The position numbers and the translations under genes are program-made. Shown in pieces: positions 12,982-41,791 of a DNA stretch of 41,791 nucleotides. Source of the DNA: a virus; IMG/VR virus record IMGVR_UViG_3300008450_000101, positions 1 through 41,791 of that record, one strand, 5' to 3'. The first letter of the stretch is position 1, and every line of letters begins with the position of its first letter. Below the pieces are notes generated by a model, which was not told the origin of the DNA, searched no databases, and saw only the letters and a list, made by a program, of their open reading frames with translations.

Positions 12982-13049
12982 CATGCGTTGGGGAAATGGC
13001 ATCTCGGCACCTTGGCGGGTGAGTTGGCGGTTCGAGTCCGCTGCGCATG
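12982..13049 (+). tRNA. tRNA-like cloverleaf, atypical or degenerate
   Basis: All four tRNA stems can be drawn: acceptor CATGCGT/GCGCATG (7 bp); D arm GGGA/TCTC with loop AATGGCA, which has the conserved A14 and GG; anticodon arm CACC/GGTG; T arm GGCGG/CCGCT with loop TTCGAGT. The anticodon loop is only 6 nt (TTGGCG), the variable region is 3-4 nt and CCA is not encoded, so a normal charged tRNA is doubtful. A 60-codon frame across it is Arg/Ser-rich and probably not coding. Confidence 0.45.
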
Positions 13050-13055
13050 TCGAAT

Positions 13056-15761: not shown

Positions 15762-15979
15762 TGAAAATAACCGAACTACTCGAAACCATCGACGGCGACA
15801 AGTGCATCACATTCTACCACTACGACCCGAGATCAAACACAAAGCACTACTCAAGCACCTTTGTGATAACGCCGAGATTTAACAAGCTGCGAATCAAAAA
15901 GAACTTTGAGAAGGAGTTAAAGAAGGCCCTTGCTAATTTGGTCGTGCCCGTCCCCTTAAGGCCCATCATGCTAAATTAG
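15761..15979 (+). CDS. Hypothetical protein, 72 aa
   Basis: A small protein with beta-rich N-terminus (CITFYHYDPRSNTKHYSS) and a basic C-terminal helix. Its stop at 15,977-15,979 overlaps the upstream element of the late promoter at 15,978, marking the end of the first late unit. Confidence 0.6.
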   Translation: MKITELLETIDGDKCITFYHYDPRSNTKHYSSTFVITPRFNKLRIKKNFEKELKKALANLVVPVPLRPIMLN

Positions 15980-16021
15980 TGGGTCAAAAAAAATACCCAT
16001 CCTCAATGGTTCATAATTTTG
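15978..16021 (+). promoter_or_regulatory. Phage-specific late promoter, copy 1 (head operon)
   Basis: AGTGGGTCA (15,978-15,986), 25 bp, CATAATTTTG (16,012-16,021), then 4 bp to ATG at 16,026. TAATTTTG is a -7 box (TAnnTTTG). There is no TTTG at -33; the AGTGGGTCA element, at -48 to -40 from the start codon, takes the place of an activator site. The same arrangement with identical spacings occurs at 22,386-22,429. Confidence 0.75.
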
Positions 16022-16025
16022 CTTT

Positions 16026-16895
16026 ATGCCGCGATTACTGCGAGATAAAGACTATTTACGAGCCATACAACAAGATAACCTAGACCAGGTTACGGAAGGC
16101 AACAGGCAAATAATGCTTGATGTCGAGCAGGCCGCGCAAACCCAAATGATCAGCTACCTGATCCAGCGCTACCAAACGGCCAAAGTTTTCACTAACACAT
16201 CAGTTTACAGCCCTTCGGCTATCTATGGCGCTAAAGACCTCGTAGAATATACAGAACCTGCTTTTAATGCAGCCACGGTATATTTAACTGGTGACCGGAT
16301 ATCCTATGATGGTAAGATTTACCAATCAACATCTGGATCCGCTGCGGGCGCTTTTAATATCGCCAACTGGACTTATCTTGTTGACGACCTTTCCCTGTTT
16401 TTTGTAAACCTTCCTTTCCCTGAATTCAACCCGGCAACGAGTTATTCAATCGGGGACGTCGTATGGTACAACGGAAGTGTTTATACTGCGGCAGTCGCAA
16501 CAAAGAACATTTACCCGGATTCGTCAACGCAATATTGGGGAACGGGAACCCCCTACACGATCACAAACATTCTGCCGACAGTTGGCGCTACCTGGACACA
16601 GGGCGACAACCGAAACCAGGAAATAGTGATGAATCTTATTGATATCACACTGTTTCACCTACACACCAGGATCAATCCCCGCAATATTCCAGACCTAAGG
16701 AAACAGCGCTATAACGGCGACGATCCAATGGACAGGGGCGGTTCTATTGGCTGGTTAAAACACGTTGCATCAGGTGACGTTAATGCCGATCTACCAAAGA
16801 TTGTCCCGTCTCAGGGCCTTTCTATTTCATGGGGATCAGCCAACGGATCTGGATCTGGCGGAACTTATACAATAAGCAATAATACACTCTGGTAA
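16026..16895 (+). CDS. Mu gp36-like (DUF1320) head-tail adaptor with inserted carbohydrate-binding-like repeats
   Basis: 289 aa, about twice the family length. The N-terminal 55 residues and the C-terminal segment near 200-265 (EIVMNLIDITLFHLHTR...RYNGDDPMDRGGSIGWLKHVASG) together form the DUF1320 neck protein that joins capsid and tail in Mu-like phages. Between them are two repeats with the pattern Y-x3-G-D-x-V/I-x-Y-x-G-x-x-Y (near 85-120 and 140-180) like CBM5/12 chitin-binding modules. They may be displayed at the neck and bind glycans. It heads the operon and precedes the portal, a shuffled order relative to Mu. Confidence 0.75.
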   Translation: MPRLLRDKDYLRAIQQDNLDQVTEGNRQIMLDVEQAAQTQMISYLIQRYQTAKVFTNTSVYSPSAIYGAKDLVEYTEPAFNAATVYLTGDRISYDGKIYQSTSGSAAGAFNIANWTYLVDDLSLFFVNLPFPEFNPATSYSIGDVVWYNGSVYTAAVATKNIYPDSSTQYWGTGTPYTITNILPTVGATWTQGDNRNQEIVMNLIDITLFHLHTRINPRNIPDLRKQRYNGDDPMDRGGSIGWLKHVASGDVNADLPKIVPSQGLSISWGSANGSGSGGTYTISNNTLW

Positions 16896-18118
16896 TGGCA
16901 AAAAAGGATATTAAAAAGATTGATAACCTCGATGTCATTCAGCCTAGGAGCGTTGATACTCGAAGATACATTAAACGAGAAGTTCAGCTATACAGGGTAG
17001 CAACTGATCTCAAAAAATACAAGTTAGCTGTACTGGCCGCAGAGAATATCCAATATCCCCAGCGTCACCAACTATACCAGATATACAACAACTGCATGTT
17101 GGATGCACATTTAAGTGCTGCTATTCAACAACGTAAGAACCTCACTTTATCAAAGGAATTTCAAGTATTAAACCCAGATGGGGAGATTAACGAGGAAAAG
17201 ACCAAGTTGATTAACAAAAAATGGTTTAGGGATTACCTGGATCTTGCCCTTGACTCCCTATTCTGGTCTCATTCCCTTATCCAATTCGACAGCATTATAA
17301 ACGATGAGTTCAAATGTGTTGAGCTGGTGCCGAGAATCTACGTTAAGCCAGAGTTTCACATCGTAACGCAAAACTACTCAGACTTAGAAGGCCTCGATTA
17401 CCTTGAAATGCCTTACCGTAATTGGTGCATAGGAGTGGGAAAAAGCCGTGACTTAGGTTTACTTCTTAAAGCTTCTCCGCTCGTTATATGGAAGAAAAAC
17501 GCAATGGGTGCCTGGGCTGAGTTCATTGAGAAATTCGGGGTACCGGCAAGGATCGGCAAAACTAACGTCAGGGATGCGGAAACCCGTGCCAACATGGAGG
17601 ACATGTTGAAGAATATGGGAACAGCTCTATGGGCAGTTCTCGATACTGACGACGAAATTGTGCCGGGCTTTGAGACTAAAACACAGGACGCCTACAACGT
17701 TTTCGATATGATGATCCAGCGCTGCAACAGCGAGATTTCTAAGCTTATCCTTGGTCAGACAATGACCTTGGACGACGGATCAAGTAAATCACAAGCAGAA
17801 GTTCATGAGCGCGTTGTGGAGATGGTTGATTATGCCGATGAGCAATTTATCAAAGGCGTAAATAACTACCAGCTTTGCCCAATGCTTACGGCGCTTGGCT
17901 TATTCGACGGTTCAGAAGAAATCGTCACTAAATCAGACGACGAGTGGGATCTCGAAGCCAAAGGCAAATTCGATGTTGAGTTATTGAAGACAGGGAAATA
18001 TAAATTCACACCTGAATACCTCCTTGAGAAGTACAATACAGAGGTGGTAGAAGTTGAAGAGCAAGAAGTGGATAATACTTCACGGGTTAAAAAACAGATA
18101 GACAATTTATACAAATAA
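16895..18118 (+). CDS. Portal protein, DUF935 (Mu gp29-like)
   Basis: 407 aa. Family signatures: LYQIYNNCMLDAHLSAAIQQRK near the start, FIEKFGVPARIGK in the middle and ISKLILGQTMTLDDGSSKSQAEVHERV toward the end, as in the DUF935 portals of Mu-like phages. A dodecameric portal sits at one capsid vertex, threads DNA and nucleates head assembly. It overlaps neighbours by single bases. The C-terminus is acidic (EVVEVEEQEVD). Confidence 0.9.
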   Translation: MAKKDIKKIDNLDVIQPRSVDTRRYIKREVQLYRVATDLKKYKLAVLAAENIQYPQRHQLYQIYNNCMLDAHLSAAIQQRKNLTLSKEFQVLNPDGEINEEKTKLINKKWFRDYLDLALDSLFWSHSLIQFDSIINDEFKCVELVPRIYVKPEFHIVTQNYSDLEGLDYLEMPYRNWCIGVGKSRDLGLLLKASPLVIWKKNAMGAWAEFIEKFGVPARIGKTNVRDAETRANMEDMLKNMGTALWAVLDTDDEIVPGFETKTQDAYNVFDMMIQRCNSEISKLILGQTMTLDDGSSKSQAEVHERVVEMVDYADEQFIKGVNNYQLCPMLTALGLFDGSEEIVTKSDDEWDLEAKGKFDVELLKTGKYKFTPEYLLEKYNTEVVEVEEQEVDNTSRVKKQIDNLYK

Positions 18119-18912
18119 TGTGCGGGATTTGCGACGTTCAGAACATCGATACCATAAACCTATTCTCAGATGATGAGATTTTAAGGTTTTTGGACGACGT
18201 ATTTAACGGCCTAATATCGACTAGTTCTTTGAGTACAGAGCAATACCTGATAATAGCCCGTAAGCTGTTTGAGGGTGTTGCCTCTGGTTATGGGAAAGAC
18301 ATCGCTACAGTATCGTTTGGAACACCTGATTACGCTATGCTGAGGTCAATGAGGGAGAACGTTTACAGGTTCTCAGGGGCCAAACAGTACCAATCAATAA
18401 GGCAGATGAACAGCCTGTTGATCCAGGACGGGAAGCTGATCACAAAATCAAACTTCATGAAGCAAGCACGGGAGTTATTCAAAGAGTACAATGTGAATCA
18501 TCTTTCTACAGAGTATAACACCGCGATTCAACAGGCCCGCTCCGCTTCTTTATGGCAGGATATTCAGCAGAATAAGGAATATTTGCCGATGCTTACCTAT
18601 CACACGGTAGGCGATGGAAGGGTAAGGCCTGAACATGCGAGTCTTGACGAAATAACCAGGCCTGTTGATGATAAATTTTGGTACACGTGTTTTCCTCCTA
18701 ATGGATGGAATTGCAGATGTACTACTATCCAAACAGACGACGCGGTAAAGAGTGATTTAAGAGGCATAAAAATTCATCAGGATGTTCCGGAGCCGTTCAG
18801 GATGAATGCAGGACGAGACATGATAGTTTACAGCAAAGCGCACCCATATTTTAATGTAGCACCGAAAGATAAACAGGCATTAGCTAATAATTTCAATTTA
18901 CCACTACCATAA
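18118..18912 (+). CDS. Mu F-like minor head protein (gp30 family)
   Basis: 264 aa. The diagnostic C-terminal block is present: TVGDGRVRPEHASLDEITRP, then FPPNGWNCRCTTI, the DGRVRPEH...PPxGWNCRC motif of the phage Mu F-like / SPP1 gp7 family. The N-terminus is Cys-rich (MCGICD). These minor head proteins bind the portal and assist DNA injection or head morphogenesis. It follows the portal, as in Mu. Confidence 0.9.
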   Translation: MCGICDVQNIDTINLFSDDEILRFLDDVFNGLISTSSLSTEQYLIIARKLFEGVASGYGKDIATVSFGTPDYAMLRSMRENVYRFSGAKQYQSIRQMNSLLIQDGKLITKSNFMKQARELFKEYNVNHLSTEYNTAIQQARSASLWQDIQQNKEYLPMLTYHTVGDGRVRPEHASLDEITRPVDDKFWYTCFPPNGWNCRCTTIQTDDAVKSDLRGIKIHQDVPEPFRMNAGRDMIVYSKAHPYFNVAPKDKQALANNFNLPLP

Positions 18913-19343
18913 TGGCATTCAACAACGCAGCACAGGTTATGCAGATGCAGGCAAGGATTGAACGGCAAATAGCCGCCTCACTATCCGCTGTTGCTACTTT
19001 GGCCCGAAACCATTACGTGGAGTCATTCAGGAACCAAGGTTTTACAGACGAATGGTTAAATAAATGGACGCCAAGGAAAGCAAGAGATCGAGGCCGGCAG
19101 TCAAGAGGGTCGCGAGCTATCTTGGTAAGGTCTGGATCACTAAGGAATTCGATTAAAGCCCGGGTTGTTGGCTATACCATTATCATATCGAGTGACTTGC
19201 CATACGCAAACATACATAATGATGGCGGACAAGGCGCAAGGCGCATGCCGAAAAGGCAATTCGTAGGCTACTCGGCTGTGCTGAACAGTAAAATAAAAGG
19301 AATGATTGACAGGCGAATTACAAGAACTTTCAACGGAAGATGA
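18912..19343 (+). CDS. Virion morphogenesis protein, Mu gpG-like
   Basis: 143 aa, basic. The segment RAILVRSGSLRNSIKARVVGY followed by SSDLPYANIHNDGGQGARR...RQFVGYS is the typical core of the phage virion morphogenesis (tail_S / gpG) family, required for tail completion or head-tail joining. It comes after the F-like gene, the same order as in Mu. The end overlaps the next gene by 4 bp. Confidence 0.85.
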   Translation: MAFNNAAQVMQMQARIERQIAASLSAVATLARNHYVESFRNQGFTDEWLNKWTPRKARDRGRQSRGSRAILVRSGSLRNSIKARVVGYTIIISSDLPYANIHNDGGQGARRMPKRQFVGYSAVLNSKIKGMIDRRITRTFNGR

Positions 19344-19843
19344 GCCATATAATACTATACAACGGCCTCCGGGCAGACATCGAGGCAATAACAGGTCTTG
19401 ACGGTAAGCCCGTGTTCAAGTATGTGAGGCTTTACAACAGTCAGTACGAACACCAGGAGAGGCTAAAAAACGATCAAAGCGCTTTCCTTTTCCCGGCATG
19501 CCTGATCGAACTAAAACCTTCCAATTTCAGGGACTTACTTAACGGAGTTCAGCAGTATGATTTGACCGTAACCCTGCACATAGGCTTTGAGAGCTACAAA
19601 GACGAAGACACGGATATACTAACGATCAAGCAGAATGTGTTTAAGGCTGTTCACCGGAAACAGTATGCGGATTTCAGCATGCTATTACGCCGGGATGAGC
19701 GCCAGAACTTCGATCACCCGAATACTCAGATTTACGAACAGGATTACTTCACTACAGGAAAAGACTTTGACGCAGATATAAGGCCAAAAACACAAACCGG
19801 ACTCATTTCACCGGCTGTCACAGTCAACTTAATTACCCCATAA
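19340..19843 (+). CDS. Tail terminator / neck protein candidate, 167 aa
   Basis: The segment YDLTVTLHIGFESYKDEDTD and ILTIKQNVFKAVH has the strand-helix layout of tail terminator proteins, which cap the tube and join it to the neck, and FPACLIELKPSNF an early strand. Position after the G-like gene fits Mu gp37-type proteins. No catalytic features. The assignment is by fold pattern and order only. Confidence 0.6.
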   Translation: MSHIILYNGLRADIEAITGLDGKPVFKYVRLYNSQYEHQERLKNDQSAFLFPACLIELKPSNFRDLLNGVQQYDLTVTLHIGFESYKDEDTDILTIKQNVFKAVHRKQYADFSMLLRRDERQNFDHPNTQIYEQDYFTTGKDFDADIRPKTQTGLISPAVTVNLITP

Positions 19844-20721
19844 TGGCAAGAAAATTAGTAGATATTATCAATCAAATGGATGTTGACCAGGCCAGTAAGC
19901 CCGAGTTGACTGCATTAAATAGTCCTAGCCAGGTGGCTATTTACACCCTGTGGAAATACATCACAGCATTGCAGATATATTTTGTTGAGGTTCTCATGGA
20001 TCGTAAGAAGGTTGAGATTCAGGACGTCGTAGATTCCGGTATCGTTGGCTCTGATTACTGGCTACAGCGCAAGTCTTTGGAATTTCAGTATTCTGCAACC
20101 GTACCGCAGGTTACGCATCTCATTGGATTTGTGCCCGGATATCTCATTGTTGATCCCTCGCTAAGAATTATTACGCGCTGTTCAGTAAAAACGACAGCAT
20201 CCAGATTATCGACGGTGAAGGTTGCAAAGAATGAGCCGCCAGTAGCGCTAAGCGCCCCCGAACTCTCAGCCTTTCAGAGCTATCTGAACAACACAGGCGA
20301 CGGCACATCAAGCGGCGCAGGCGTTGGAATTGGCTTTGCTGGAACAAAATGGATCGCTAGCAGCTACGATTCTGATAAATTCTACTTAAAAGCGAATATC
20401 GTTTATAACGGCCAGTACGCTGCGGTTATTCAATCGACGGTTATTTCCGCTATAGAATCTTACTTCGCCGCGCTTCCCTTTGATGGATCAGTGAAAATAG
20501 TTTCGCTTATCGATGCTATACAGTCTGTTCCTGGAGTTTCAGACGTAATCATTGAAGATGCAGCAATACGTCCAGATACAGCGCTTTTCGCAAATAAAAT
20601 ATACCTGGTTCAGGGCTTTACCGAACTGCTTAGCACATATCCAACATTTGCCGGTTATGTTGCGCAGGAAACAACATCTGGAAGCACTTTCACCGATACA
20701 TTAACCTTCACTGCGTCATGA
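19843..20721 (+). CDS. Baseplate J-like protein
   Basis: 292 aa. The C-terminal half (FYLKANIVYNGQYAAVIQST, then AIESYFAALPFDGSVKIVSLIDAIQSVPGVSDVIIED) matches the pattern of baseplate wedge J proteins: strand, helix, short basic-to-acidic loop and the PGVSDV turn. The N-terminus has a helical PSQVAIYTLWKYITALQIYF. J forms the baseplate wedge with gp25/W. Its place among head and neck genes, far from the gp25-like gene at 31.4 kb, is unusual. Confidence 0.7.
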   Translation: MARKLVDIINQMDVDQASKPELTALNSPSQVAIYTLWKYITALQIYFVEVLMDRKKVEIQDVVDSGIVGSDYWLQRKSLEFQYSATVPQVTHLIGFVPGYLIVDPSLRIITRCSVKTTASRLSTVKVAKNEPPVALSAPELSAFQSYLNNTGDGTSSGAGVGIGFAGTKWIASSYDSDKFYLKANIVYNGQYAAVIQSTVISAIESYFAALPFDGSVKIVSLIDAIQSVPGVSDVIIEDAAIRPDTALFANKIYLVQGFTELLSTYPTFAGYVAQETTSGSTFTDTLTFTAS

Positions 20722-21389
20722 GTATTTTCAATTACAACGCTTATGTGGTAGGGGAGCAGATTACGCCGCCAGACCTAAGGAAACCAAAGTTCATGGCTTG
20801 GCTAGACGTCTTATTAAAGCCTTTGCAATGGGCTGCTGACAATCTGTTTGTAGATTTCTCAAACGGATCAAATTACCCTGAATACGATGGACTAACAGGG
20901 TATTCATTTGGGGACACAGTTATATGGTCAGACAAGAGGGTGTATAAATATATCTCTACAACGATCACAGCTGGAACAGATCCGAGTAACGACGCCTACT
21001 GGACGCTGGTAAACGAAACATTTATCGGCGTAAACGAACAGGTTAAATACAATTCTCAAATCATTGTATTCGAGTACCACTTAAATAAATACTTTTTGGT
21101 TTCGCCTATAAACCCTCAGATATACTTGTCTGATAATGCGAATTCCGGATCGAACTTTATGATGGGATTTACAGGGCCTTACAGCGATAATATGCCTGTA
21201 AATAGTGCTTATCAAATAAATTACATGTCCACTATCCCAGCCTACACATTAACTGATTTTACCATAAACGTACCGCTCACCTTATTTAACTCGCTGGGAA
21301 ACACAAGTGCAAATTCCGAAAAAGCAATAAGAAACTACGCCGATAAATTTGTCTTATCCGGCATGTGTTACGATGTATCAACCTACTAG
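20718..21389 (+). CDS. Baseplate or fibre protein with carbohydrate-binding-like module
   Basis: 223 aa. Residues about 54-95 (YDGLTGYSFGDTVIW...VYKYISTTITAGTDPSNDAYWTLV) follow the CBM5/12 pattern with closing Trp. The rest lacks a recognised family. It overlaps the J-like gene by 4 bp and is followed by another fibre-like gene, so it may be a baseplate appendage (gp I/P2-like position after J). Ligand unknown. Confidence 0.55.
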   Translation: MSIFNYNAYVVGEQITPPDLRKPKFMAWLDVLLKPLQWAADNLFVDFSNGSNYPEYDGLTGYSFGDTVIWSDKRVYKYISTTITAGTDPSNDAYWTLVNETFIGVNEQVKYNSQIIVFEYHLNKYFLVSPINPQIYLSDNANSGSNFMMGFTGPYSDNMPVNSAYQINYMSTIPAYTLTDFTINVPLTLFNSLGNTSANSEKAIRNYADKFVLSGMCYDVSTY

Positions 21390-21395
21390 AAAAAT

Positions 21396-22115
21396 ATGAA
21401 CAGAATATACACAGGCTTCGCCGCAGACCCGTCACCACAACAGCCTTGGACAACACAATCCCTCGACTTCTTACAGGATTCGATAAAAGACCAGGTTAAC
21501 ATGATTTGCCGATCAGCAATAAGGCAATCTGGTTTAACATACTCAACATCCATACCCTACCAATTCGCGAACAATGGATCTTCGGGGCGGTATATATTTT
21601 TCAACGGGGAGCTTTACTTCATGCAGGCGCCTGCGGGAGGTAACAATATTGGCGTTTTGATTACTCAATCGGGAACCGGTGACCCTCTTTTATTTTCTGA
21701 CAACGTAGCCAGGAATGTGCATAATGTCCGAGTTATCGATCCACAAACCGGAACCCTTGGCGCTGGACTTTTCGATCTTGCCGACATTGTGGATATTAAC
21801 CTGGTGATATGGACATCTATTTCTTTATTAAACGGATATTCTACCTACACGGCAAATCCGGAATTTAAGGTAGAGCGTGAAGTGGTAACACTAAGAGGTA
21901 ACGCTACTGTCACACCAGGAACTTCCAGTAAAATAGCTGACATGCCTTCTCAGGCTGTCCCAAGCGACACAAGGTATATTCCTTGCACGACTTGGGATGG
22001 AACAAATTACATCGCCAATCTCTTGATAGTAAACGCTACGGGAGAGGTGAATATTCAGATCACGTCAGGAACAACCGTTATCGTTTACTTTGACGGATTA
22101 AGTTATTCCGTTTAA
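21396..22115 (+). CDS. Fibre-like virion protein, 239 aa
   Basis: Opens MNRIYTGFAADPSPQQPWTT then SLDFLQDSIKDQVNMICRSA, a layout common in Bacteroidota phage fibre proteins where an N-terminal helix attaches to the baseplate. The C-terminal half is beta-rich (NATVTPGTSSKIADMP...). It is the last gene before the reverse gene at 22,098-22,379, which it overlaps by 18 bp at the 3' end. Confidence 0.6.
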   Translation: MNRIYTGFAADPSPQQPWTTQSLDFLQDSIKDQVNMICRSAIRQSGLTYSTSIPYQFANNGSSGRYIFFNGELYFMQAPAGGNNIGVLITQSGTGDPLLFSDNVARNVHNVRVIDPQTGTLGAGLFDLADIVDINLVIWTSISLLNGYSTYTANPEFKVEREVVTLRGNATVTPGTSSKIADMPSQAVPSDTRYIPCTTWDGTNYIANLLIVNATGEVNIQITSGTTVIVYFDGLSYSV

Positions 22116-22379
22116 TTTTTCAGATAGAATTCGATGGATATCGTCGAACTCTTTTCCTTTTAAATTCCCAACCTTTGCGGTGATGTCGTAGTATATCTTT
22201 AAAATATTCTTGAGGACGTGAGACTCTGATTTATCACGCAGTATGCAGTCTTCTATGAAGTGATTTTTAGAAGTCCCGCCGACATATCCCTTCACCGTTT
22301 TACCATCTATCCTGGTTAGCGCCTGTATTCGAGGCATGTTTTTTTTCTCCGACAATTTTAGAATTCTTTTTTCTGGCAT
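22098..22379 (-). CDS. Lone reverse-strand small basic protein, 93 aa
   Basis: The only minus-strand gene inside the late region. It is basic, beta-strand start (MPRIQALTRIDGKTVKGYVGG) then helices. A second Met at 22,337 (MPRIQALTR) is a good alternative start. A TATATTTA box sits upstream, divergent from the late promoter at 22,386. Such reverse genes are typical of morons expressed from the prophage or of regulators; function unknown. Confidence 0.6.
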   Translation of the reverse strand: MPEKRILKLSEKKNMPRIQALTRIDGKTVKGYVGGTSKNHFIEDCILRDKSESHVLKNILKIYYDITAKVGNLKGKEFDDIHRILSEKLNGIT

Positions 22380-22385
22380 AAGAAA

Positions 22386-22429
22386 AGTGGGTCATTTTCC
22401 CGTTACGGTAAATATACGACATAATTTTG
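22386..22429 (+). promoter_or_regulatory. Phage-specific late promoter, copy 2 (protease-capsid-tail operon)
   Basis: AGTGGGTCA (22,386-22,394), 25 bp, CATAATTTTG (22,420-22,429), then TTAC and GTG at 22,434. Sequence elements and all distances match the copy at 15,978, while the 25-bp spacer differs, so the elements are conserved rather than a recent duplication. In-frame TAA just upstream excludes a start before the GTG. Confidence 0.75.
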
Positions 22430-22433
22430 TTAC

Positions 22434-23543
22434 GTGGATAATTCTTACACGTTCAAATATATCAGAAATGTTTCCGAGCAAGAGGGGACGATCCTTATTT
22501 ATAAGCAGATCGGAAACTCAATCGATCAATCAGGAAATATCGTTTATGGTGTAAACGGCTCTGATTTCGCGAATGAAATGGAGTACTTACAGCGCGTGTG
22601 CAGTAAGATCACAGTGCGCATAAACTCACCTGGCGGATCTGTCTTAGACGGGTACGCAATTGCGTCTTCAATATTACACAGTCAAAAGCCAGTTCATACC
22701 ATTGTTGATGGTGTTGCCGCAAGTACAGCAGGCTGGTGTGCGGCATGTGGATCTGAGCGCTCTATGGTTGATTACGGCTCTTTCATGATGCATAATTCAT
22801 CAGGAGCGGGAGATAAGGACATGCAGAACCTGATCGACACTTCAATCAACACTATCCTTTCAAATCGAAGCGGAAAGACACCGGAAGACATCACCAACAT
22901 GATGAAGAAAGAAACTTGGCTCAATGCTTCACAAGCTAAAGAGAACGGGTTGATTGACAATATTATCTCATCCGGAAAGAAATTCAAAACGCCCAAAAAC
23001 GCAACTGCCGAACAGTTGGCGTCAATATTCAACAAATCAATTAATAACCCAAACATGGAAAAAGTAGCAAAACTGCTTAATCTGGCTTCTGATGCTTCTG
23101 AAAAGGAAATTACCAGCGCCATTGACGCAAAGGACAGCAAAATCAAAGCACTCGAAACAGAATTAGAGGCGCTGAAAGCTGAGAACATCGCAAAAGAAAA
23201 CGCAGCTAAAGAAGCTGCTAAAACCAAAGCGGAAGCACTCGCAAATAAACTGGAAACAGAAAAGAAAATCACAGCCGATCAAAAAGCTGATGTGATCCAA
23301 ATGGCGATCGTGAACTACTCTTTTGTAGAATCCACATACTCCAAAATCGGCACGCCTTCAAACCAGGTTTCCACTAAGGTTTTCGACATCAAAAACGTAA
23401 AGACCGGAAGCAAAACAGAAGATCGTTCTGAATGGACAATCCGCGACTGGGAGAAAAAAGACCCTAAGGGCCTGGGAGAGATGCAAAACTCTACTCCGGA
23501 AGTGTACCAGGAATTATACGACAACTTTTATAAAAACAAATAA
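22434..23543 (+). CDS. Prohead protease (ClpP/S49-like) fused to scaffold
   Basis: 369 aa, GTG start. Residues 20-185 are a ClpP-type protease: INSPGGSVLDGYAIAS, catalytic Ser in VDGVAASTAGW, His in GSFMMHNSSG, and a later Asp. Residues about 208-310 are a Glu/Lys/Ala-rich coiled coil typical of scaffolding proteins, then a basic tail. Mu has the same fused plan (gene I with nested Z). It should cut scaffold and capsid during maturation. An internal ATG at 23,055 may make the scaffold alone. Confidence 0.9.
   Translation: MDNSYTFKYIRNVSEQEGTILIYKQIGNSIDQSGNIVYGVNGSDFANEMEYLQRVCSKITVRINSPGGSVLDGYAIASSILHSQKPVHTIVDGVAASTAGWCAACGSERSMVDYGSFMMHNSSGAGDKDMQNLIDTSINTILSNRSGKTPEDITNMMKKETWLNASQAKENGLIDNIISSGKKFKTPKNATAEQLASIFNKSINNPNMEKVAKLLNLASDASEKEITSAIDAKDSKIKALETELEALKAENIAKENAAKEAAKTKAEALANKLETEKKITADQKADVIQMAIVNYSFVESTYSKIGTPSNQVSTKVFDIKNVKTGSKTEDRSEWTIRDWEKKDPKGLGEMQNSTPEVYQELYDNFYKNK
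23055..23543 (+). CDS. Possible nested scaffold protein from internal start
   Basis: ATG at 23,055 (MEKVAKLLNLASDASEKE) lies exactly at the border between the protease domain and the coiled coil, in frame. A product of 162 aa would be a free scaffold, as for Mu Z and lambda Nu3. No strong ribosome binding site is visible, but the phage rarely has them. Inference from position. Confidence 0.4.
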   Translation: MEKVAKLLNLASDASEKEITSAIDAKDSKIKALETELEALKAENIAKENAAKEAAKTKAEALANKLETEKKITADQKADVIQMAIVNYSFVESTYSKIGTPSNQVSTKVFDIKNVKTGSKTEDRSEWTIRDWEKKDPKGLGEMQNSTPEVYQELYDNFYKNK

Positions 23544-23545
23544 CG

Positions 23546-23884
23546 ATGGGATTAATTAAAGGGCCTTTTGGCGCAACCGACGTAATTGCTCTGACGGCCA
23601 CAGGCACACAGGCAATTACAATCACTAACGAGCAAAACATCATTGACGGCGTGACCGTTCAGGCCACCGGTAACAGAACACTGAACCTTACAATCAGCTC
23701 TGAAATTAAAGCCGGTGCCATGCTTTACATTAAAGTAAAGGCAACTGGCACAGAGACTACTATCATGGGTACAGGTATGACAGGCCCAACCATCACCGGA
23801 GTGGCCGGGAAAACTCATACGGTTGCGTATTGGTACGATGGAATCACATTCAAACCATCCGGAACAGCCGTTCAAATCGACTAA
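23546..23884 (+). CDS. Head decoration protein candidate, 112 aa
   Basis: A beta-rich, Thr/Gly-rich protein (MGLIKGPFGATDVIALTATGTQAITITNEQ) placed between the protease-scaffold and the major capsid gene. That is the classical position and size of capsid cement proteins such as lambda gpD. No conserved residues decide the matter. It would stabilise the expanded head. Confidence 0.6.
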   Translation: MGLIKGPFGATDVIALTATGTQAITITNEQNIIDGVTVQATGNRTLNLTISSEIKAGAMLYIKVKATGTETTIMGTGMTGPTITGVAGKTHTVAYWYDGITFKPSGTAVQID

Positions 23885-23908
23885 AAACAATCAAATAAAA
23901 GCTATATC

Positions 23909-24829
23909 ATGGCATTACAACGCGAAGTCTGGGCAACAGACATACAAGAAAACCTATACGCAAACAACGCCTTCATGGTTAAGGCAACCGACCATTCAGC
24001 GTGGGTGAATTACAAAACAGTTCACGTGCCACAGGCTGGCGCAAACATGGCGGTAGTTAAAAACAGAAGCGTCCTTCCTGCGCAAATCACTGAGCGGACA
24101 GATACCGAATTGACCTACAACCTGAACGAGTACACGGCTGATCCAATCCTCATCCGAAACATCGACGAGTTGCAGTTATCGTATTCGAAGCGTATGTCTG
24201 TATTGAGTCAATATAACGACGTGTTGGGTGATACGATAGCAAACAACACGCTTTACGCTTGGGCGCCAAGTGGAGCGTCCCGTTTGATCCGTACAACCGG
24301 AACGGCAACTGCGGGAGTATTAGCACCTGGGGCAACAGGCAACAGGAATGCTTTAACATTAGCTGACATTGCAGCAGCCAAAGCAAAATTGGACGCTGAG
24401 AATGTGCCGGCCGATGGTCGTGTTATGATCATCCCTGCGGATATTTATAACACGAATTTACTGGCTATTCCAAACATCATCCAGTACTTCCAAAACGGGA
24501 CTGCGGTATTACCTAATGGTAACGTGCCTAAGTTGTTTGGTTTCGAAATCATCGTACGCTCAAGTGTGCTGGTTTACGACAACTCTGCAACCCCGGTTAT
24601 CAAAACAATCGGCGACAACGGTGTACCAACCACAACAGCAACATCTGACAACTTAGCCATCTTGTTTTACCATCCAAAATTTGTGGCGAAAGCAATGGGT
24701 GGAATTGAGGTGTTTTATGACGAAGACAAGCCGGAGTTCTTTGGATCACTGTTCTCTGCATTGGTAATGCATGGAGCTACCAAGATGCGCACGTCACAGA
24801 TTGGTGTTGGTGCAATCGTACAGGCTTAA
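23909..24829 (+). CDS. Major capsid protein, HK97-like fold
   Basis: 306 aa. Opening MALQREVWATDIQENLYANN and the middle VMIIPADIYNTNLLAIPNIIQ, then FGFEIIVRSSVLVY and LFYHPKFVAKAMGG, match the capsid family found in Bacteroidota myophages. It follows the protease and decoration genes, and an intrinsic terminator follows directly, as expected for the most abundant virion protein. No long N-terminal delta domain is seen, so scaffolding is supplied by the protease fusion. Confidence 0.88.
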   Translation: MALQREVWATDIQENLYANNAFMVKATDHSAWVNYKTVHVPQAGANMAVVKNRSVLPAQITERTDTELTYNLNEYTADPILIRNIDELQLSYSKRMSVLSQYNDVLGDTIANNTLYAWAPSGASRLIRTTGTATAGVLAPGATGNRNALTLADIAAAKAKLDAENVPADGRVMIIPADIYNTNLLAIPNIIQYFQNGTAVLPNGNVPKLFGFEIIVRSSVLVYDNSATPVIKTIGDNGVPTTTATSDNLAILFYHPKFVAKAMGGIEVFYDEDKPEFFGSLFSALVMHGATKMRTSQIGVGAIVQA

Positions 24830-24844
24830 TCAATATTAACTAAG

Positions 24845-24867
24845 AGCCGGTTAACCGCCGGCTTTTT
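24845..24867 (+). terminator. Intrinsic terminator after the major capsid gene
   Basis: AGCCGG (24,845-24,850) and CCGGCT (24,858-24,863), 7-nt loop, followed by TTTT. Partial read-through would feed the tail genes while keeping capsid mRNA abundant. Confidence 0.75.
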
Positions 24868-24881
24868 AATACCTATTTAAA

Positions 24882-25139
24882 ATGGAGTTAAGAAAAAAAG
24901 CGGAAGACGCCGCAAAAAACTATATCAATGACCCGGATATCGAAACGCTATGCGTGACATTCCCGGATCAGGCGGTTTACGTCAATAACGACATCCAGGT
25001 AATGCGCAAGCACTGCGCTGATCATAACCTCGAAATTATCGTGCTAAAAGGCGAAGAGTACGGGCCTAAATTGCCGAATGTAGATGAGAACCCAGTCGAA
25101 GTAAAAGAGAAAAAACCAAAAGGAACACCAAAAAAATAA
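24882..25139 (+). CDS. Small hypothetical protein, 85 aa, head-tail region
   Basis: A charged protein with a Lys/Glu-rich tail (EVKEKKPKGTPKK). The segment PDIETLCVTFPDQAVYVNND looks like a small strand-rich fold. It sits between the capsid gene and the sheath and shares its stop with the next start (TAATG). Possible head-completion or fill-in protein; unproven. Confidence 0.6.
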   Translation: MELRKKAEDAAKNYINDPDIETLCVTFPDQAVYVNNDIQVMRKHCADHNLEIIVLKGEEYGPKLPNVDENPVEVKEKKPKGTPKK

Positions 25140-26644
25140 TGGCAAACGACGTTATATTCATCAAAGCTCAAGGCGGCTTAGGCAGGCCATTGCCAGGAAC
25201 GGATTACATTTCCGGCTTGCTGTTTTATTCGGCATCCCTTCCCTCTGGCTTCACAACTACCGACAGGATTAAAACTGTTTTTAGTATTGAGGATGCCGAA
25301 GCCATCGGGATTACTGATGCGCACATTGGCGAAACCAAAGCAACCGGAACCATTACGGTAACCGGTGCCGGAACAGCAGGTGACACCATTGAGGTCAAGA
25401 TCACTACAGACACAGGAACAGTTTCATTAGGAACAGCCACAGTACCTGGATCTCCAACAACTACCACAGTTGCCTCTGCTATCGCAGCAGCTATCAACTC
25501 CGGAACATTGACGCATGGGTACACAGCTTCATCGGCATCAGCCGTTGTTACAGTTACGGTGCCAGCCGGAAACGGCTTAGCGGCAAACTCCTATGTTTTT
25601 GCCAATGTTATCACCGGGACAGCGACTACCACAAATTCAACGTTTTCAGGCGGCGTAGCTTCGGACATTGACATCTTATATTACCATGTTTCTGAGTATT
25701 TCAGAATTCAGCCTAAAGGCAAGCTGTATGTAGGCGTTTATGCGACTGCTGATGTCGGAACATTCGCAAGCATTACCCTTATGCAAAACTTTGCGCTTGG
25801 CGAGATTAAACAAATGGCAGTTTATCAAAAAACAACAGCCTTTGCGACCTCTCAGACAAACACCATTCAAGGCATTTGCACGGCATTAGAGGCTCTTCAT
25901 AAACCTTTGGTTGTTCTATATCAGGCAGATTTTTCAGGCGTGTCAGATTTAACGACATTGACGAATCTAAGGGTTTTAACTAACCCTCAGGTATCGGTAC
26001 TGATCGGCCAGGACGGTGCGAATATCGGTAAATCACTTTACAGGGCTACTAACAAATCCATCGGAATTGCTGGCGGAACTCTTGGGGCGGTTTCTTTGGC
26101 AGCAGTAAACGAGGACATTGCATGGGTTGGTAAGTTCCAAATGGCAAGCGCTGAACTTGATACACTTGCCTTTGCAAACGGACAGCTTTACACGGCGTTA
26201 TCGGATGGACTGATCAATAACCTCGATTTGTACGGATACGTATTCTTGAAAAAACATCTCGGAATTGCCGGATCTTATTTCGATGATAGCCACACGGCTG
26301 TTTCTCTGACATCAGACTACGCTTACATCGAGAACAACCGCACCATTTACAAGGCTATCCGTGACGTAAGAACGATCATGTTGCCAAACCTGGCGAGTCC
26401 CATTCTGGTAAATGCTGACGGTACACTGACGGAGGATGTAGTAGGTTATTACTCCTCGGAATGTGGTCGCGCTCTGGATGTCATGGTTAGAAACGGAGAA
26501 ATCAGTGCTTACAATGTGATCATTAATCCTGCTCAAAACGTCCTTTCTACTTCGATCCTGCAGATCACAATTCAAATTGTCCCGGTAGGAGTTGCAAGGA
26601 CGATCAAAATTAACATCGGTTACACCGTTTCAATATCTCAATAA
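25139..26644 (+). CDS. Contractile tail sheath protein (DUF2586-type)
   Basis: 501 aa. Both ends match the sheath fold: N-terminal VIFIKAQGGLGRPLPGTDYISGLLF and the C-terminal YAYIENNRTIYKAIRDVRTIMLPNLAS with the ISAYNVIINPAQN arm. Between about residues 62 and 175 is a Thr/Gly/Ala-rich beta domain (TGTITVTGAGTAGD...ITGTATTTNS) absent from the basic family; it probably faces outward. The sheath contracts to drive the tube through the envelope. Followed 2 bp later by the tube gene. Confidence 0.85.
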   Translation: MANDVIFIKAQGGLGRPLPGTDYISGLLFYSASLPSGFTTTDRIKTVFSIEDAEAIGITDAHIGETKATGTITVTGAGTAGDTIEVKITTDTGTVSLGTATVPGSPTTTTVASAIAAAINSGTLTHGYTASSASAVVTVTVPAGNGLAANSYVFANVITGTATTTNSTFSGGVASDIDILYYHVSEYFRIQPKGKLYVGVYATADVGTFASITLMQNFALGEIKQMAVYQKTTAFATSQTNTIQGICTALEALHKPLVVLYQADFSGVSDLTTLTNLRVLTNPQVSVLIGQDGANIGKSLYRATNKSIGIAGGTLGAVSLAAVNEDIAWVGKFQMASAELDTLAFANGQLYTALSDGLINNLDLYGYVFLKKHLGIAGSYFDDSHTAVSLTSDYAYIENNRTIYKAIRDVRTIMLPNLASPILVNADGTLTEDVVGYYSSECGRALDVMVRNGEISAYNVIINPAQNVLSTSILQITIQIVPVGVARTIKINIGYTVSISQ

Positions 26645-26645
26645 A

Positions 26646-27089
26646 ATGGCATACAACATACCGCCGTTAATCAACGGCAAATCATACGAGTGGGCAGATA
26701 TTAAAGTGAACATTTTGGGACAACCCATCACTGGCATTACCGCTATCATGTACGATGATAAACAGAACATGGTTAATGTCATGGGGGCAGGGCCTCGCCC
26801 GGTGTCTCGTGGATATGGGAATTTTGAGCCATCGGCTAAGATTACCCTACTCATGGAAGAAGTGGAAGCGCTAAGGACACTGGCAAGGACTATCAGCCCT
26901 TACGGCTCTATCCAGTCAATCCCGGAGTTTGACATTCAGGTGTTTTATTTAGATCCTGCCCTGACCATCAGGCAACACGTTTTAAGGAATGTTCGCTTTA
27001 TGAACAATCCGACAGATACTAAGTCCGGCGATACATCCATCCCGGTAGAGATCGAAATTCTGATCTCTCACGTAGAGTACAAACAATAA
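26646..27089 (+). CDS. Tail tube protein
   Basis: 147 aa from ATG 26,646 (MAYNIPPLINGKSYEWADIK). The compact beta fold with alternating hydrophobics, a GASI-like turn (VMGAGPRPVSRGYG) and a strand-rich C-terminus, plus the place directly after the sheath, mark it as the inner tube. The in-frame start at 26,592 would overlap the sheath gene and is less likely. It stacks as hexamers to form the channel. Confidence 0.82.
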   Translation: MAYNIPPLINGKSYEWADIKVNILGQPITGITAIMYDDKQNMVNVMGAGPRPVSRGYGNFEPSAKITLLMEEVEALRTLARTISPYGSIQSIPEFDIQVFYLDPALTIRQHVLRNVRFMNNPTDTKSGDTSIPVEIEILISHVEYKQ

Positions 27090-27114
27090 TTTATAAACCA
27101 ATCCCCTTTAGAAA

Positions 27115-27453
27115 ATGGAATTAAAAACAAAAGAACAGCTCGCATCAGATCGCGAAACTGCAAAACTACAGGATCCAACCTGTCGTGACTTTATCGTAAC
27201 ACTCGATACTGACGACGAAACAAAAACAGCAACTTTCTTTTTGCGCAAACCTGACAAGACTACCAGGTCAATGGTTGATAAGCTTGTAAACAAAGGCTTA
27301 TCTGAAAACGCGGTAAAGGCGTGTTTAAAAGCGCTATACCTTGGCGGTGACGATATTGCATGCCTAGACAAGTATGACGACGCAATGATCTCAGCCGAAG
27401 CGGGTGTCGTGGAGTTGCTTAAGGTTCAAGCCGCTATCATAAAAAAAAATTAG
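27115..27453 (+). CDS. Tail assembly chaperone, short form
   Basis: 112 aa. Placed between tube and tape measure, where phages encode a gpG/gpE-type chaperone. The sequence is helical with LRKPDKTTRSMVDKLVNKGLSE and ends at AAIIKKN just past a run of nine A. That run supports a -1 frameshift into a 58-codon extension. The short form should coat the tape measure before tube assembly. Confidence 0.8.
   Translation: MELKTKEQLASDRETAKLQDPTCRDFIVTLDTDDETKTATFFLRKPDKTTRSMVDKLVNKGLSENAVKACLKALYLGGDDIACLDKYDDAMISAEAGVVELLKVQAAIIKKN
27441..27447 (+). promoter_or_regulatory. Slippery heptamer A-AAA-AAA for -1 frameshift
   Basis: In the chaperone frame the codons are ATA, AAA, AAA, AAT, TAG. The heptamer 27,441-27,447 fits X-XXY-YYZ exactly. 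Two bases after the heptamer-containing A run, the -1 frame stays open to TAA at 27,621, while the zero frame ends at 27,453. Confidence 0.8.
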
Positions 27454-27623
27454 AAGAGTACACAAAGCTGATTGAGGCGGATGAGATGGCAAAGAATAAT
27501 GCGCTCATCCGCTTTTATCATAGGGAGAATCCGGAAGATCTATCTAACGAAGACTGGTGTTTGAGGGTGGCAGAACTTCAATTCGTCCTAAAATACACAG
27601 GTGTATTAGTACCAAAACAATAA
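27447..27623 (+). CDS. Tail assembly chaperone, -1 frameshift extension (T part)
   Basis: The -1 frame reads KLEEYTKLIEADEMAK and so on for 58 codons to VLVPKQ, without a usable start of its own. It ends 2 bp before the tape-measure ATG. Together with 111 codons of the zero frame it would give a 169-aa long form, the pattern of lambda gpGT and many contractile phages. NEDWCLRVAELQFVLKY is a helical pattern typical of T domains. Confidence 0.75.
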   Translation, partial: KLEEYTKLIEADEMAKNNALIRFYHRENPEDLSNEDWCLRVAELQFVLKYTGVLVPKQ

Positions 27624-27624
27624 C

Positions 27625-29049
27625 ATGGCAGCGCAGGGAAGCACGTTACAATATAGGCTAACGCTAAACAATAGCAATTTCAACAATAAGTTGAGGGAAT
27701 CTGCGGGAAATGTTGGCAAACTTGATTCGTTGTTTGGCAAGCTCGGCCAACGTCTTGCGGCCGCTTTTTCAGTCGGTAAAATTATTGAGTTTGGAAAAGC
27801 GGTGATTGAATCACTTAAAAATTACGAATACTTCACGGCCGCCATCCGCACCATGCTCAAGGGGGATGCGGATCAGGCCAGGGCATTGCAAGGACAGCTT
27901 GTTAACCTAGCCAAAACAACGCCGTTTGCACTAACAGAGGTTCAGGACGCGTCTAAGCAATTACTTGCTTATGGTTTTAAAGCCGGGGACTTAGTTCAGA
28001 CCATGCGAGACCTTGGAGACGTGAGTTCAGGTGTTGGCGCGCCATTAACAGACATCGCATATCTATATGGAACACTCAAGACGTCCGGCCGGGTTATGCA
28101 GGTGGATTTGCGGCAGTTTGCTGGCCGTGGTATTCCTATTTACGAAAGTCTTGCGAAAGTACTTAAAGTGAATCAAAAAGAGATAAACGCCATGGTTCAC
28201 GACGGGAAGATCGGATTTAAGGATGTTGAAAAAGCTTTCAAATCCATGACGCAGGAGGGAGGGCAGTTCTTCAATATGATGAACCAGCAATCGCAAACTG
28301 TTGGGGGCCGACTTTCAAATCTTGGTGATTCATGGGAGCAACTAAAAGTAAACATCGGGAAATCACAGACCGGCATCATCTCATCAACGGTTACCTGGGT
28401 AGGCCAAATGGTAGAATCTCTATCTAAAATATTTGAACAAGCCAACAGGATAGATGAAGCATTCGCAAAAGCCAAGCTATCATTTACGGGCTGGGAAAAG
28501 TTTTTAAACCTTGCTCAGCAATATGGAACAGCTATTAACGGAGACGGATGGGGAAGGGCAACCATGAGCGAAACTCAAAGGTTTGATCAATCTGTACAGG
28601 AAAATTTAGTGAACCCCGCAAGTCAAAGCTTAGGCGGAGCAAACAAGGCGAATATTGATGTGCACAAGGCTATTGCTGAAATTAATAAAAAGTATGCTTC
28701 CGGAGATCTTGATAAAAAGAATTACGAAAGGCAAAATGCTATTCTTAGAAACGCACAAGGAGTAATTGAAGGAAACATCAGGCTATTTAACTCGAAAGAA
28801 GGCCCCGGTGGAAAAAAAGGGGATGGAACAGAGCCAGGCGGCGCTACAGGATCTGCCAGCTCAATTGGTTCAGGTGTAGAAGTTACCGGTGCCAGGCCTC
28901 AGAACTTAACCATCAACGTTGATAAGCTCGTGGAAACATTGAACATAAATACAACCAACATTAAGGAGGGTATCGGAGAAATGACAGAGGGTGTTAAAAA
29001 AGCCCTGCTCGAATTACTCAACGATGCCAACCAAGCAGCATTTCAATAA
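27625..29049 (+). CDS. Tape measure protein
   Basis: 474 aa. N-terminal YRLTLNNSNFNNKLRESAGNVGKL and the conserved TPFALTEVQDASKQLLAYGF, QFAGRGIPIYESLAKVLK block are typical of the tape-measure N-terminal domain. Hydrophobic and amphipathic helices follow, then a Gly-rich linker (GPGGKKGDGTEPGGATG) and a coiled C-terminus. Its length sets tail length; 474 aa predicts a short tail of roughly 70 nm, which is inference from the usual 0.15 nm per residue. Confidence 0.9.
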   Translation: MAAQGSTLQYRLTLNNSNFNNKLRESAGNVGKLDSLFGKLGQRLAAAFSVGKIIEFGKAVIESLKNYEYFTAAIRTMLKGDADQARALQGQLVNLAKTTPFALTEVQDASKQLLAYGFKAGDLVQTMRDLGDVSSGVGAPLTDIAYLYGTLKTSGRVMQVDLRQFAGRGIPIYESLAKVLKVNQKEINAMVHDGKIGFKDVEKAFKSMTQEGGQFFNMMNQQSQTVGGRLSNLGDSWEQLKVNIGKSQTGIISSTVTWVGQMVESLSKIFEQANRIDEAFAKAKLSFTGWEKFLNLAQQYGTAINGDGWGRATMSETQRFDQSVQENLVNPASQSLGGANKANIDVHKAIAEINKKYASGDLDKKNYERQNAILRNAQGVIEGNIRLFNSKEGPGGKKGDGTEPGGATGSASSIGSGVEVTGARPQNLTINVDKLVETLNINTTNIKEGIGEMTEGVKKALLELLNDANQAAFQ

Positions 29050-29054
29050 AAGAT

Positions 29055-29252
29055 ATGAAACCATTGACAATAAACATAGAGTGCCTTGTGGAGAATTACA
29101 CATTAAAAGACACGGAAATTAAACCTGAATTAAGTGAGGCATTAACGGATATTATGATTCGCGCATTGTTTAGCTCAATGCAAAACGAAAGCCGAGAAAT
29201 AATTGTAAACATCGGTTCTATTATTAAAAATATCAGTATAGAAAATGGCTGA
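29055..29252 (+). CDS. Small baseplate-region protein, 65 aa
   Basis: A short protein (MKPLTINIECLVENYTLKDTEIK) with beta start and helical middle, between tape measure and a baseplate connector gene, overlapping the latter by 8 bp. No family recognised. Confidence 0.6.
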   Translation: MKPLTINIECLVENYTLKDTEIKPELSEALTDIMIRALFSSMQNESREIIVNIGSIIKNISIENG

Positions 29253-29898
29253 TTTCATCGTACCAAAACCGCAAACACCAGCGGCGCAAGCCCAGTTAAT
29301 TCTAAAAGGGGCTGGGCTTGCATTGGTTAAACCAAAGTTTTTCAACATCGATACAGCAAAGGCCCAAGACGAGACATTTGCCATTGAACAGGCGAAAATT
29401 GATTACTCTAAAACGCTATTCGGAACGCCTATTTTCGATGTTCTAAAGTTTGATTCCGCAAGCTACATTGACGATTCAGGAACAACCATAAACCTCGGTG
29501 GCTTGGATCTTGAAATTGCTTTGTTCGACATAAATATGCCCAGGAACATTGTAAGCACAAAGGTGAATGGAAGGAATGGAAAAGTGTTTGAATACATGTC
29601 GAATGACGATTACCAGGTTAACATCAAAGGGTGTTTGGTGAGTGATAACAATGGCGGGTCTCCTGAAAAGTTGATCCGAGACCTAAACCAGTACGCGATT
29701 GCCCCGATTTCATTGAAGGTTCAAAGCACTATTTTATCATACTTTGGAATTTTCACTATCGTCATCGTAACGCCAAAATTTACGCAGCGAGAAGGTATGC
29801 GTAATGTGTGGGACTACGAGTTGCAATGTGAAAGCGAAACCCCTTTCGAGATCAAATCTGCAAACAGCAACAATCGCAAAAGTGTACCATCTTTCTAA
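29245..29898 (+). CDS. Baseplate connector / DUF6046-like protein
   Basis: 217 aa. LILKGAGLALVKPKFFNIDTAK at the start and the later DYQVNIKGCLVSDNNGGSPEKLIRDLNQY resemble the DUF6046 group seen in Bacteroidota contractile phages, between tape measure and the hub. It probably binds the end of the tube or the spike. Name by similarity from memory; medium certainty. Confidence 0.65.
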   Translation: MADFIVPKPQTPAAQAQLILKGAGLALVKPKFFNIDTAKAQDETFAIEQAKIDYSKTLFGTPIFDVLKFDSASYIDDSGTTINLGGLDLEIALFDINMPRNIVSTKVNGRNGKVFEYMSNDDYQVNIKGCLVSDNNGGSPEKLIRDLNQYAIAPISLKVQSTILSYFGIFTIVIVTPKFTQREGMRNVWDYELQCESETPFEIKSANSNNRKSVPSF

Positions 29899-30932
29899 TG
29901 CTAAGGCCTAAGTTTAAAATAACATTCACCAAAAAGGACGGCACCGAGCTGGCCTTTAATTTCTGTACCGCCTTCGAGATACGGGAGGGGTACGAAGATT
30001 TGACGAACACCGCAAAAATCATTGTGCCTCAAAAACTATCCCTTGAAGGGGTCAGTTTATTTGCCGGGGCAAATCCCGTATTCCTCCGGGGCGACAAGGT
30101 GAAGATTGAGGGCGGCTACTTCCCCAATAGCAGGTTATTGTTCTCTGGGTACATTACCCGGGTAAACGCAAATATCCCGATCGAAATAGAATGTGAAGAT
30201 GCGGCATTCTTATTAAAGCAGACTAAGGTAAACTACCCGTCAAAAGTGGGGCTGATCGAGAGATCAAAAAAAGGGAAATTATTGAAGCATCCAAAAGTGA
30301 TACCGTTTAAGGTTTTTCTTGAGGAGCTGCTTGATTACATGCTGCCGGACATTCAGTTTAAGGTTATTGACAATATCAATCTAGGCAGCTTCCGGGCCAT
30401 TAACGCCACGCCGGCCCAGGTGCTTGATAAGCTGAAATCTGAGTATGGGTTATTCAGCTATTTTGTAGGAGATGTTTTAAATGTCGGGTTCGCAAATGAT
30501 GCGAGCCAGACCAACGAAGAGGAGTTCGTTATGGAACAGGTGGGAATAAACAGCAACGATCTTGAATATCGTATTGCGGATGAGATTAAAATAAAGGTAA
30601 AGGCCATCAGTATGATGCCTGATAACTCTAAAATTGAGGTTGAAAGCGGAGACCCAGACGGCGACCAGCGCACCCTTCATTACTACAACCTTAATAAAAC
30701 GGACTTGCAGGCAATAGCCGACAAGTGGGTAAAAGAGTATAAGTATTCCGGATTTGTCGGATCACTGGAAACATTCGGGGAACCTTATGTGACGCACGGC
30801 GACCGGGCCAAAATAACAAGCAAGAAATTGCCAGAACGTAATGGCACGTATCTTATAAAGGCAGTGAAAAGAACGCTTTCTGTAAGTGGTGGATATCGGC
30901 AATTTATTGATTTAGGAGTAAAAATAGCATGA
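29898..30932 (+). CDS. Baseplate hub protein (gpD / gp27-like)
   Basis: 344 aa. The sequence RLLFSGYITRVNANIPIEIECEDAAFLLKQT with a following DILPD-like segment and INATPAQVLDKL is the family pattern of phage late-control D / gp27-like hubs. The C-terminal YVTHGDRAKITSKKLPERNGTYLIKAVKRTLSVSGGYRQFI is also typical. It forms the central ring under the tube and holds the spike encoded next. Overlaps the spike gene by 4 bp. Confidence 0.82.
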   Translation: MLRPKFKITFTKKDGTELAFNFCTAFEIREGYEDLTNTAKIIVPQKLSLEGVSLFAGANPVFLRGDKVKIEGGYFPNSRLLFSGYITRVNANIPIEIECEDAAFLLKQTKVNYPSKVGLIERSKKGKLLKHPKVIPFKVFLEELLDYMLPDIQFKVIDNINLGSFRAINATPAQVLDKLKSEYGLFSYFVGDVLNVGFANDASQTNEEEFVMEQVGINSNDLEYRIADEIKIKVKAISMMPDNSKIEVESGDPDGDQRTLHYYNLNKTDLQAIADKWVKEYKYSGFVGSLETFGEPYVTHGDRAKITSKKLPERNGTYLIKAVKRTLSVSGGYRQFIDLGVKIA

Positions 30933-31444
30933 GTAAAAAGCAATTAGTTGACGCCCTGAGGGATGCGGTAGATCCAAACGTTAAGGCCTTTAGCCTGGCT
31001 TGTACTGTTGACAGTGTGGACTTGACGAATCTTACATGCTACTGCGTGCCTATTAACGGAGACGCGGACATGCAGGAGGTTAAGTTGATTGCAAACAACA
31101 ACAAGGGGTTTCTGATCGTGCCAGCGGTTGACAGCGTGGTAATCGTTTCGCTATTGTCAGGATCCAGCTATTATGTGTCGATGTTTAGCAAGGTGGATTC
31201 GATACAATTGAACGGTGATTCCTACGGCGGAATCCCCCGGGTCGATCCCTTAGTGACCAAAGTAAACGCCCTTGAGAACTTGTTGAACAATGTTTTAAAC
31301 GTTCTCAAAACAACCTCTATACCATTGGCTCCTTCCGGAACATATCCTTTTGCGCCGTTATACGCAGCGCTTAGCAATATTGCGCCGCTAACACAAAAAT
31401 CAGATTTAGAAAACACGACTGTAAAACATGGCAACGGAAGTTAA
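30929..31444 (+). CDS. Baseplate spike / puncturing-type protein (gpV-like)
   Basis: 171 aa. An OB-like start (VDSVDLTNLTCYCVPINGDADMQEVKL) then a strand-rich part VPAVDSVVIVSLLSGSSYYVSMFS, with a Pro/Gly-rich C-terminus. Position between hub and gp25 fits the short puncturing spike of Mu gp45/P2 V type. There is no HxH metal motif at the tip, so the tip chemistry is uncertain. The end overlaps the gp25-like gene. Confidence 0.6.
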   Translation: MSKKQLVDALRDAVDPNVKAFSLACTVDSVDLTNLTCYCVPINGDADMQEVKLIANNNKGFLIVPAVDSVVIVSLLSGSSYYVSMFSKVDSIQLNGDSYGGIPRVDPLVTKVNALENLLNNVLNVLKTTSIPLAPSGTYPFAPLYAALSNIAPLTQKSDLENTTVKHGNGS

Positions 31445-34035: not shown

Positions 34036-34046
34036 AAACTAAATAT

Positions 34047-34794: not shown

Positions 34795-34829
34795 TCACCG
34801 CCAGAAGGCACAACTACCTATTCAAAACC

Positions 34830-41765: not shown

Positions 41766-41791
41766 ATTTATTTCCACCGGTTTAAGATTAA
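41678..41791. repeat. Right copy of 114-bp terminal direct repeat
   Basis: Identical to bases 1-114, see the left copy. The repeat covers the start of the small gene at 41,553-41,765 and the DNA just upstream. No inverted structure at the junction suggests a natural end. Confidence 0.9.

Follow-up and report, generated by a model that had tools for sequence, protein, structure and literature searches.

The window (the whole stretch of DNA analyzed here) corresponds to a 41,791-base virus record in IMG/VR. Because its first ~114 bases (1-114) are repeated at its end (41,678-41,791), as in a circular assembly, the phage genome in it is probably complete. An integrase-like protein (recognized by eye), a CI-like S24 repressor, and Mu-like head genes are encoded, and the phage appears to be a temperate phage of Bacteroidota. 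ARAGORN placed a tRNA-like gene, the anticodon of which is unclear, at 12,982-13,051, fairly near the integrase gene; it could mark an attachment site. The structural genes and the features associated with their promoters are listed in Table 1. Two stretches of a carbohydrate-binding module 5/12 (PF02839) were observed in the Mu gp36-like head protein (16,026-16,895), a C-terminal K1-lyase domain (PF24146) in the distal tail block protein at 32,968-34,035, and a DNA methyltransferase (PF01555) at the end of the late block (35,138-36,070).

Table 1. Late promoters, candidate regulator, and late gene blocks in the window
Feature	Position	Strand	Remark
Late box 1, AGTGGGTCA	15,978-15,986	+	Core TGGGTCA at 15,980-15,986; predicted -48 to -40
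Late promoter 1, -7 element TAATTTTG	16,014-16,021	+	27 bp past the core; TAnnTTTG position from PMC9723704
Head operon	16,026-22,115	+	Mu gp36-like protein, DUF935-type portal, MuF-like minor head protein, G-like protein, others
Candidate regulator	22,098-22,379	-	93 aa, predicted ribbon-helix-helix (RHH); divergent from the protease operon
Late box 2, AGTGGGTCA	22,386-22,394	+	Core TGGGTCA at 22,388-22,394
Divergent -7 element TATATTTA of the regulator gene	22,409-22,416	-	Predicted start near 22,404
Late promoter 2, -7 element TAATTTTG	22,422-22,429	+	
Protease-capsid-sheath-tube-tape measure-baseplate operon	22,434-32,245	+	
Late box 3, TGGGTCA within AATGGGTCA	32,038-32,044	+	Inside the baseplate-like gene 31,739-32,245
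Late promoter 3, -7 element TAAATTTG	32,073-32,080	+	28 bp past box 3
Distal tail/methylase block	32,238-36,345		Protein with K1-lyase C-terminal domain, small proteins, DNA methyltransferase

The layout AGTGGGTCA-N25-CATAATTTTG-N4-start codon was found as two exact instances starting at 15,978 and 22,386, in which CATAATTTTG (16,012-16,021 and 22,420-22,429) is followed after 4 bp by ATG 16,026 and GTG 22,434, respectively. This pair had been described in a first-pass annotation of the window, and its elements, spacings, and coordinates were all exact. Both AGTGGGTCA and CATAATTTTG have two exact copies in the window, and the spacers of the two promoters are unrelated in sequence. None of 200 first-order Markov simulations of the window repeated the 9-25-10 layout; when any gap of 15-40 bp was allowed, a layout repeat was obtained in 3 of 100 simulated windows. 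An inverted repeat by box 1 (TGGGT...ACCCA) was dropped as an element, as box 2 lacks it.

The two sites are real; they had been called twin promoters, and a third TGGGTCA site had been missed. With both strands counted, the TGGGTCA core has three copies in the window, each with TAnnTTTG 27-28 bp further on, and none is expected for this combination and spacing in shuffled sequence. The third site, TGGGTCA-N28-TAAATTTG, spans 32,038-32,080 and faces the block at 32,238-36,345, which it would drive. All three sites precede late blocks (head; protease-capsid-tail; distal tail to methylase). The earlier proposal that phage-specific promoters open the head and protease-capsid-tail operons is supported.

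The TAnnTTTG -7 element, located at -12 to -5 (PMC9723704), is exact at all three late sites of the window, and the box position of -48 to -40 given in the first-pass annotation agrees with this placement. The start points of promoters 1 and 2 are predicted at the first base of ATG 16,026 and GTG 22,434. As the predicted start falls on the start codon, the mRNAs from these promoters would be leaderless, a class comprising 5.5% of the mapped mRNAs in F. psychrophilum (PMC9723704). None of the three late promoters was among the TTTG-N17-23-TAnnTTTG sites of the window; the site before the 12,233 gene reads TTTG-N19-TACCTTTG. A missing -33 TTTG had earlier been taken as a hint of a phage activator; it is indeed absent at the late promoters, but its absence is not diagnostic of an activator (PMC7366714). 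The -33 TTTG of the B. fragilis consensus is not a general flavobacterial feature (johnsoniae; PMC7366714), and its absence therefore carries little weight. Two right-arm genes on the minus strand (37,382 and 38,084) are also preceded by TAnnTTTG, 4 bp before the ATG, but lack a late box.

The exact 9-mer layout was not found in IMG/VR, and a looser AGTGGGTCA pattern, which permits many chance matches, was found in 94 contigs. Relatives were gathered via the portal (~45-62% identical). When species genomes were searched for the portal, the first scan gave none, and a profile scan detected L138 as the one close relative, plus a single distant match. The relatives keep the layout as a heptamer, mostly [TA]GNNNC[AT], 27-28 bp before TAnnTTTG, and this gap of 27-28 bp was found at every relative box assigned by the motif scan, which allowed 25-29 bp. 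The window 9-mer is not kept in the relatives and is private to the window phage. The conservation check suggested in the first-pass annotation thus had a divided outcome, as the 9-mer was lost, but position, spacing, and within-phage matching were conserved; had the loss of the 9-mer been taken as decisive, as suggested there, the idea would wrongly have been abandoned.

The longest word common to the head and protease promoters had a mean length of 9.3 within a phage versus 6.8 between phages (12 lineages), and in a permutation test of within-phage word sharing over these 12 lineages, the observed sum was not attained in any of 20,000 permutations. Single lineages differ in this respect: the longest common word of L162 and L166 is not the box, because their two boxes are not identical (TGTAACA and TGTTACA). 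Boxes that differ between phages and match within them are as expected if each phage has its own key and locks. The relatives' own boxes also recur in the baseplate gene (AGTAACA in G001, TGTAACA in G002, TGTGACA in G003, and TGGTACA in G004, with a near form of its own box in G005), ~80 bp farther upstream than in the window as read by eye. The heptamer is absent outside these promoter sites in G003 and the window. Protein coding could account for part of the conservation of the baseplate boxes; these boxes track the phage's own promoters, with GGTAC in G004 and GTGAC in G003.

Several relatives depart from this pattern. In G007 (L158), the box is fully replaced by ACATATTTAATTC (at one site AAATATTTAATTC) at four sites (head, protease, baseplate, and one more), and the -7 region lies 31-32 bp past ACATATTTAATTC, a constant spacing counted by eye. 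Phages of the L175-L185 type mostly gave no strict-scan match, and their -7 element is degenerate in several. Twin GTTACAAAATC boxes with TATAAT-like -10 elements were observed at the head and protease genes of L194/L195 (G006), in which no RHH homologue and no third site were found. In L138, L140, and L141, the gp36-like gene is preceded by a tandem pair of boxes (TAGTAACAATAGTAACAA), 9 bp apart, as for two adjacent RHH dimers.

The gene at 22,098-22,379 sits between the head and protease operons, at box 2. Nearly all relatives covering this interval have a homologue at the same place, with one RHH-family gene per phage; none was found beside the protease promoter in G006/L182. In all 18 pattern-fitting phages among the 27 scanned, a divergent -7 element lies between the box and the late -7 element on the opposite strand. 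In the regulator transcript, box 2 is predicted to occupy about +11 to +19, and with this geometry of the divergent -7 element, a protein bound at box 2 would lie just past its own start. The product of this gene is the likely reader of the boxes, although within-phage box matching does not prove that it is. The first-pass annotation had allowed for a phage activator without naming this gene; the box very probably binds a phage-encoded regulator, and the RHH candidate adjoins box 2. Genes near the terminase were also considered as the activator, and Pfam and PHROGs gave no DNA-binding family for them.

The predicted models contain the RHH-like order strand-helix-helix over ~45 residues. The window regulator was modeled with a strand at 27-34 and helices at 36-48 and 52-70 (mean pLDDT 66), and its L016 homologue with helices at 28-40 and 44-61 after an extended segment (pLDDT 78). 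In a Foldseek search with the L016 homologue, seven of ten PDB matches were RHH proteins (CdbA, MatP, PutA, CopG-DNA, and TacA1), all with E-values >3; the CopG alignment had an rmsd of 1.5 A and a target TM of 0.76, likewise at an E-value >3. No RHH protein was among the matches shown for the window model alone. These models indicate that the regulator may have an RHH fold. Pfam matched no RHH family in 19 family members, and a PDB sequence search of the regulator family gave no match. The absence of a curated-family match lowered our confidence in the fold, and remote members often escape such models. No close relatives of the window regulator were found in viral contigs, and a family-wide search found no block conserved enough to use. 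When a regulator profile was run against 395 Bacteroidota genomes, the only strong match was in the L138 genome, and one weak match lay inside a long frame.

RHH proteins read DNA through strand residues (PMC3325190). In this family, residue 4, at the center of the strand predicted to contact DNA, is Thr in every phage with a GTNAC box, and non-Thr residues occur with other boxes: Lys with TGGGTCA in the window, Ser with TGGTACA in L159, Val with TGGCACA in L204 (protease side only, box chosen by eye), and Gln with ATATTTAATTC in L158. The window numbering rests on an ungapped placement of K-T-V-K-G-Y-V, the first two residues of which are I-Q in the profile alignment. The four non-Thr phages need four changes on the protease tree, the deep branches of which are weak, and a tree-aware paired test of residue versus box had one pair only on well-supported branches and was without power. 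The association, noticed in four phages after the data were in hand, can be regarded as a lead.

Taken together, the three late promoters probably carry a phage-specific TGNNNCA operator (here TGGGTCA) near -43 that is read by an RHH activator, which blocks itself at box 2. The features computed are the three sites, their fixed spacing, the within-phage matching, the conserved divergent gene, the RHH-like model, and the residue-box association. The operator would be centered near -43, with a constant 27-28 bp between it and the sigma-A-type -7 element downstream. The RHH protein bound there would contact the RNA polymerase of the host and jointly activate all three blocks (head, protease-capsid-tail, and distal tail/methylase). 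Binding at box 2 would also block the divergent transcript of its own gene, so that a single box would serve both to shut off the regulator and to activate the structural genes. Between phages, the RHH protein and its boxes would change together. Binding, activation, autorepression, timing, and leaderless initiation are the parts that we infer.

The box centered near -43 and the fixed gap suggest an activator touching RNA polymerase, and it is because of geometry alone that activation was preferred over repression. That the RHH protein instead silences the three structural operons in the lysogen as a repressor and limits its own synthesis, like P22 Arc/Mnt, is unlikely. Few activating RHH proteins are known, AmrZ and H. 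pylori NikR having been the only characterized dual ones as of 2012 (PMC3325190), and box 2, just downstream of the divergent start, is a good place for blocking; however, the late boxes lie upstream of the core (-48 to -40) and their gap is 27-28 across lineages, whereas a repressor would need no fixed spacing there.

We also give little credence to another factor, phage- or host-encoded, reading the boxes beside an RHH gene that is a conserved neighbor. The matched twin boxes of G006 (L182), for which no RHH homologue was found, favor such a reader, whereas nearly all phages that cover the site have the RHH gene at box 2, and the predicted contact strand leaves Thr in exactly those phages whose boxes leave GTNAC. 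With a host factor, moreover, it is not easy to account for boxes that change together at three sites of one phage. A chance repeat, or promoter segments copied without a regulator, is very improbable. In its favor, the first-pass annotation described two copies only, and about three in 100 simulated windows repeat the pair with any gap, but the third copy has the same layout, the spacers are unrelated, matched boxes occur in many relatives, and the permutation result disfavors it. For the RHH activator, we lean slightly toward a broader claim, that members of an undescribed RHH family act at three matched promoters to activate late genes in Bacteroidota phages and repress their own gene via the same box, protein and operators having changed specificity together several times.

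The timing of structural-gene expression in Bacteroidota phages is little studied, and no late-gene activator of these phages was found in our searches of open-licence papers. If the RHH activator is real, one small protein and a 7-bp box would explain how uncultured phages of a widespread group coordinate their late expression, and the box would make late promoters and their regulator findable by sequence. The protein-box pairs would also be a natural operator-recognition series, which could be used to test how RHH recognition changes.

Among known systems, the Winoviridae (FPSV-S27 and lotta8-2) have DUF935 portal relatives and a small minus-strand gene at the same place before the protease, but this gene is helix-turn-helix-like by eye and no shared twin box was seen. 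In two Winoviridae (L133, 11,494-11,688; L134, 18,399-18,581), the small gene diverges from the protease, and AAAGACA repeats lie in between, possibly an analogous switch. The phage P22 proteins Arc and Mnt are small, of the RHH type, and encoded close to a divergent regulatory region; they are repressors and lie outside the morphogenetic region. In phage phi29, the binding of p4/p6 simultaneously activates and represses in the early-to-late switch (PMC3100819), as proposed here for box 2. The geometry differs from that of the window, and p4 is not known to be an RHH protein. RHH proteins that both activate and repress are represented by AmrZ of Pseudomonas, which represses its own gene and activates algD, and by NikR of H. 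pylori (PMC3325190). No sequence match to these was found, and AmrZ controls many genes in a cell rather than serving as the late switch of a phage. The late activator C and the middle activator Mor of phage Mu are not known to be RHH proteins, and the window differs from Mu in its TAnnTTTG promoter type and in having the regulator gene divergent from the protease operon. The likeness to Mu lies in the head genes, which are Mu-like in the window, and in the proposed use of a small protein at multiple late promoters that are dispersed and have non-consensus -10 and -35 elements, as Mu C activates the lys, I, P, and mom promoters (PMC4461284).
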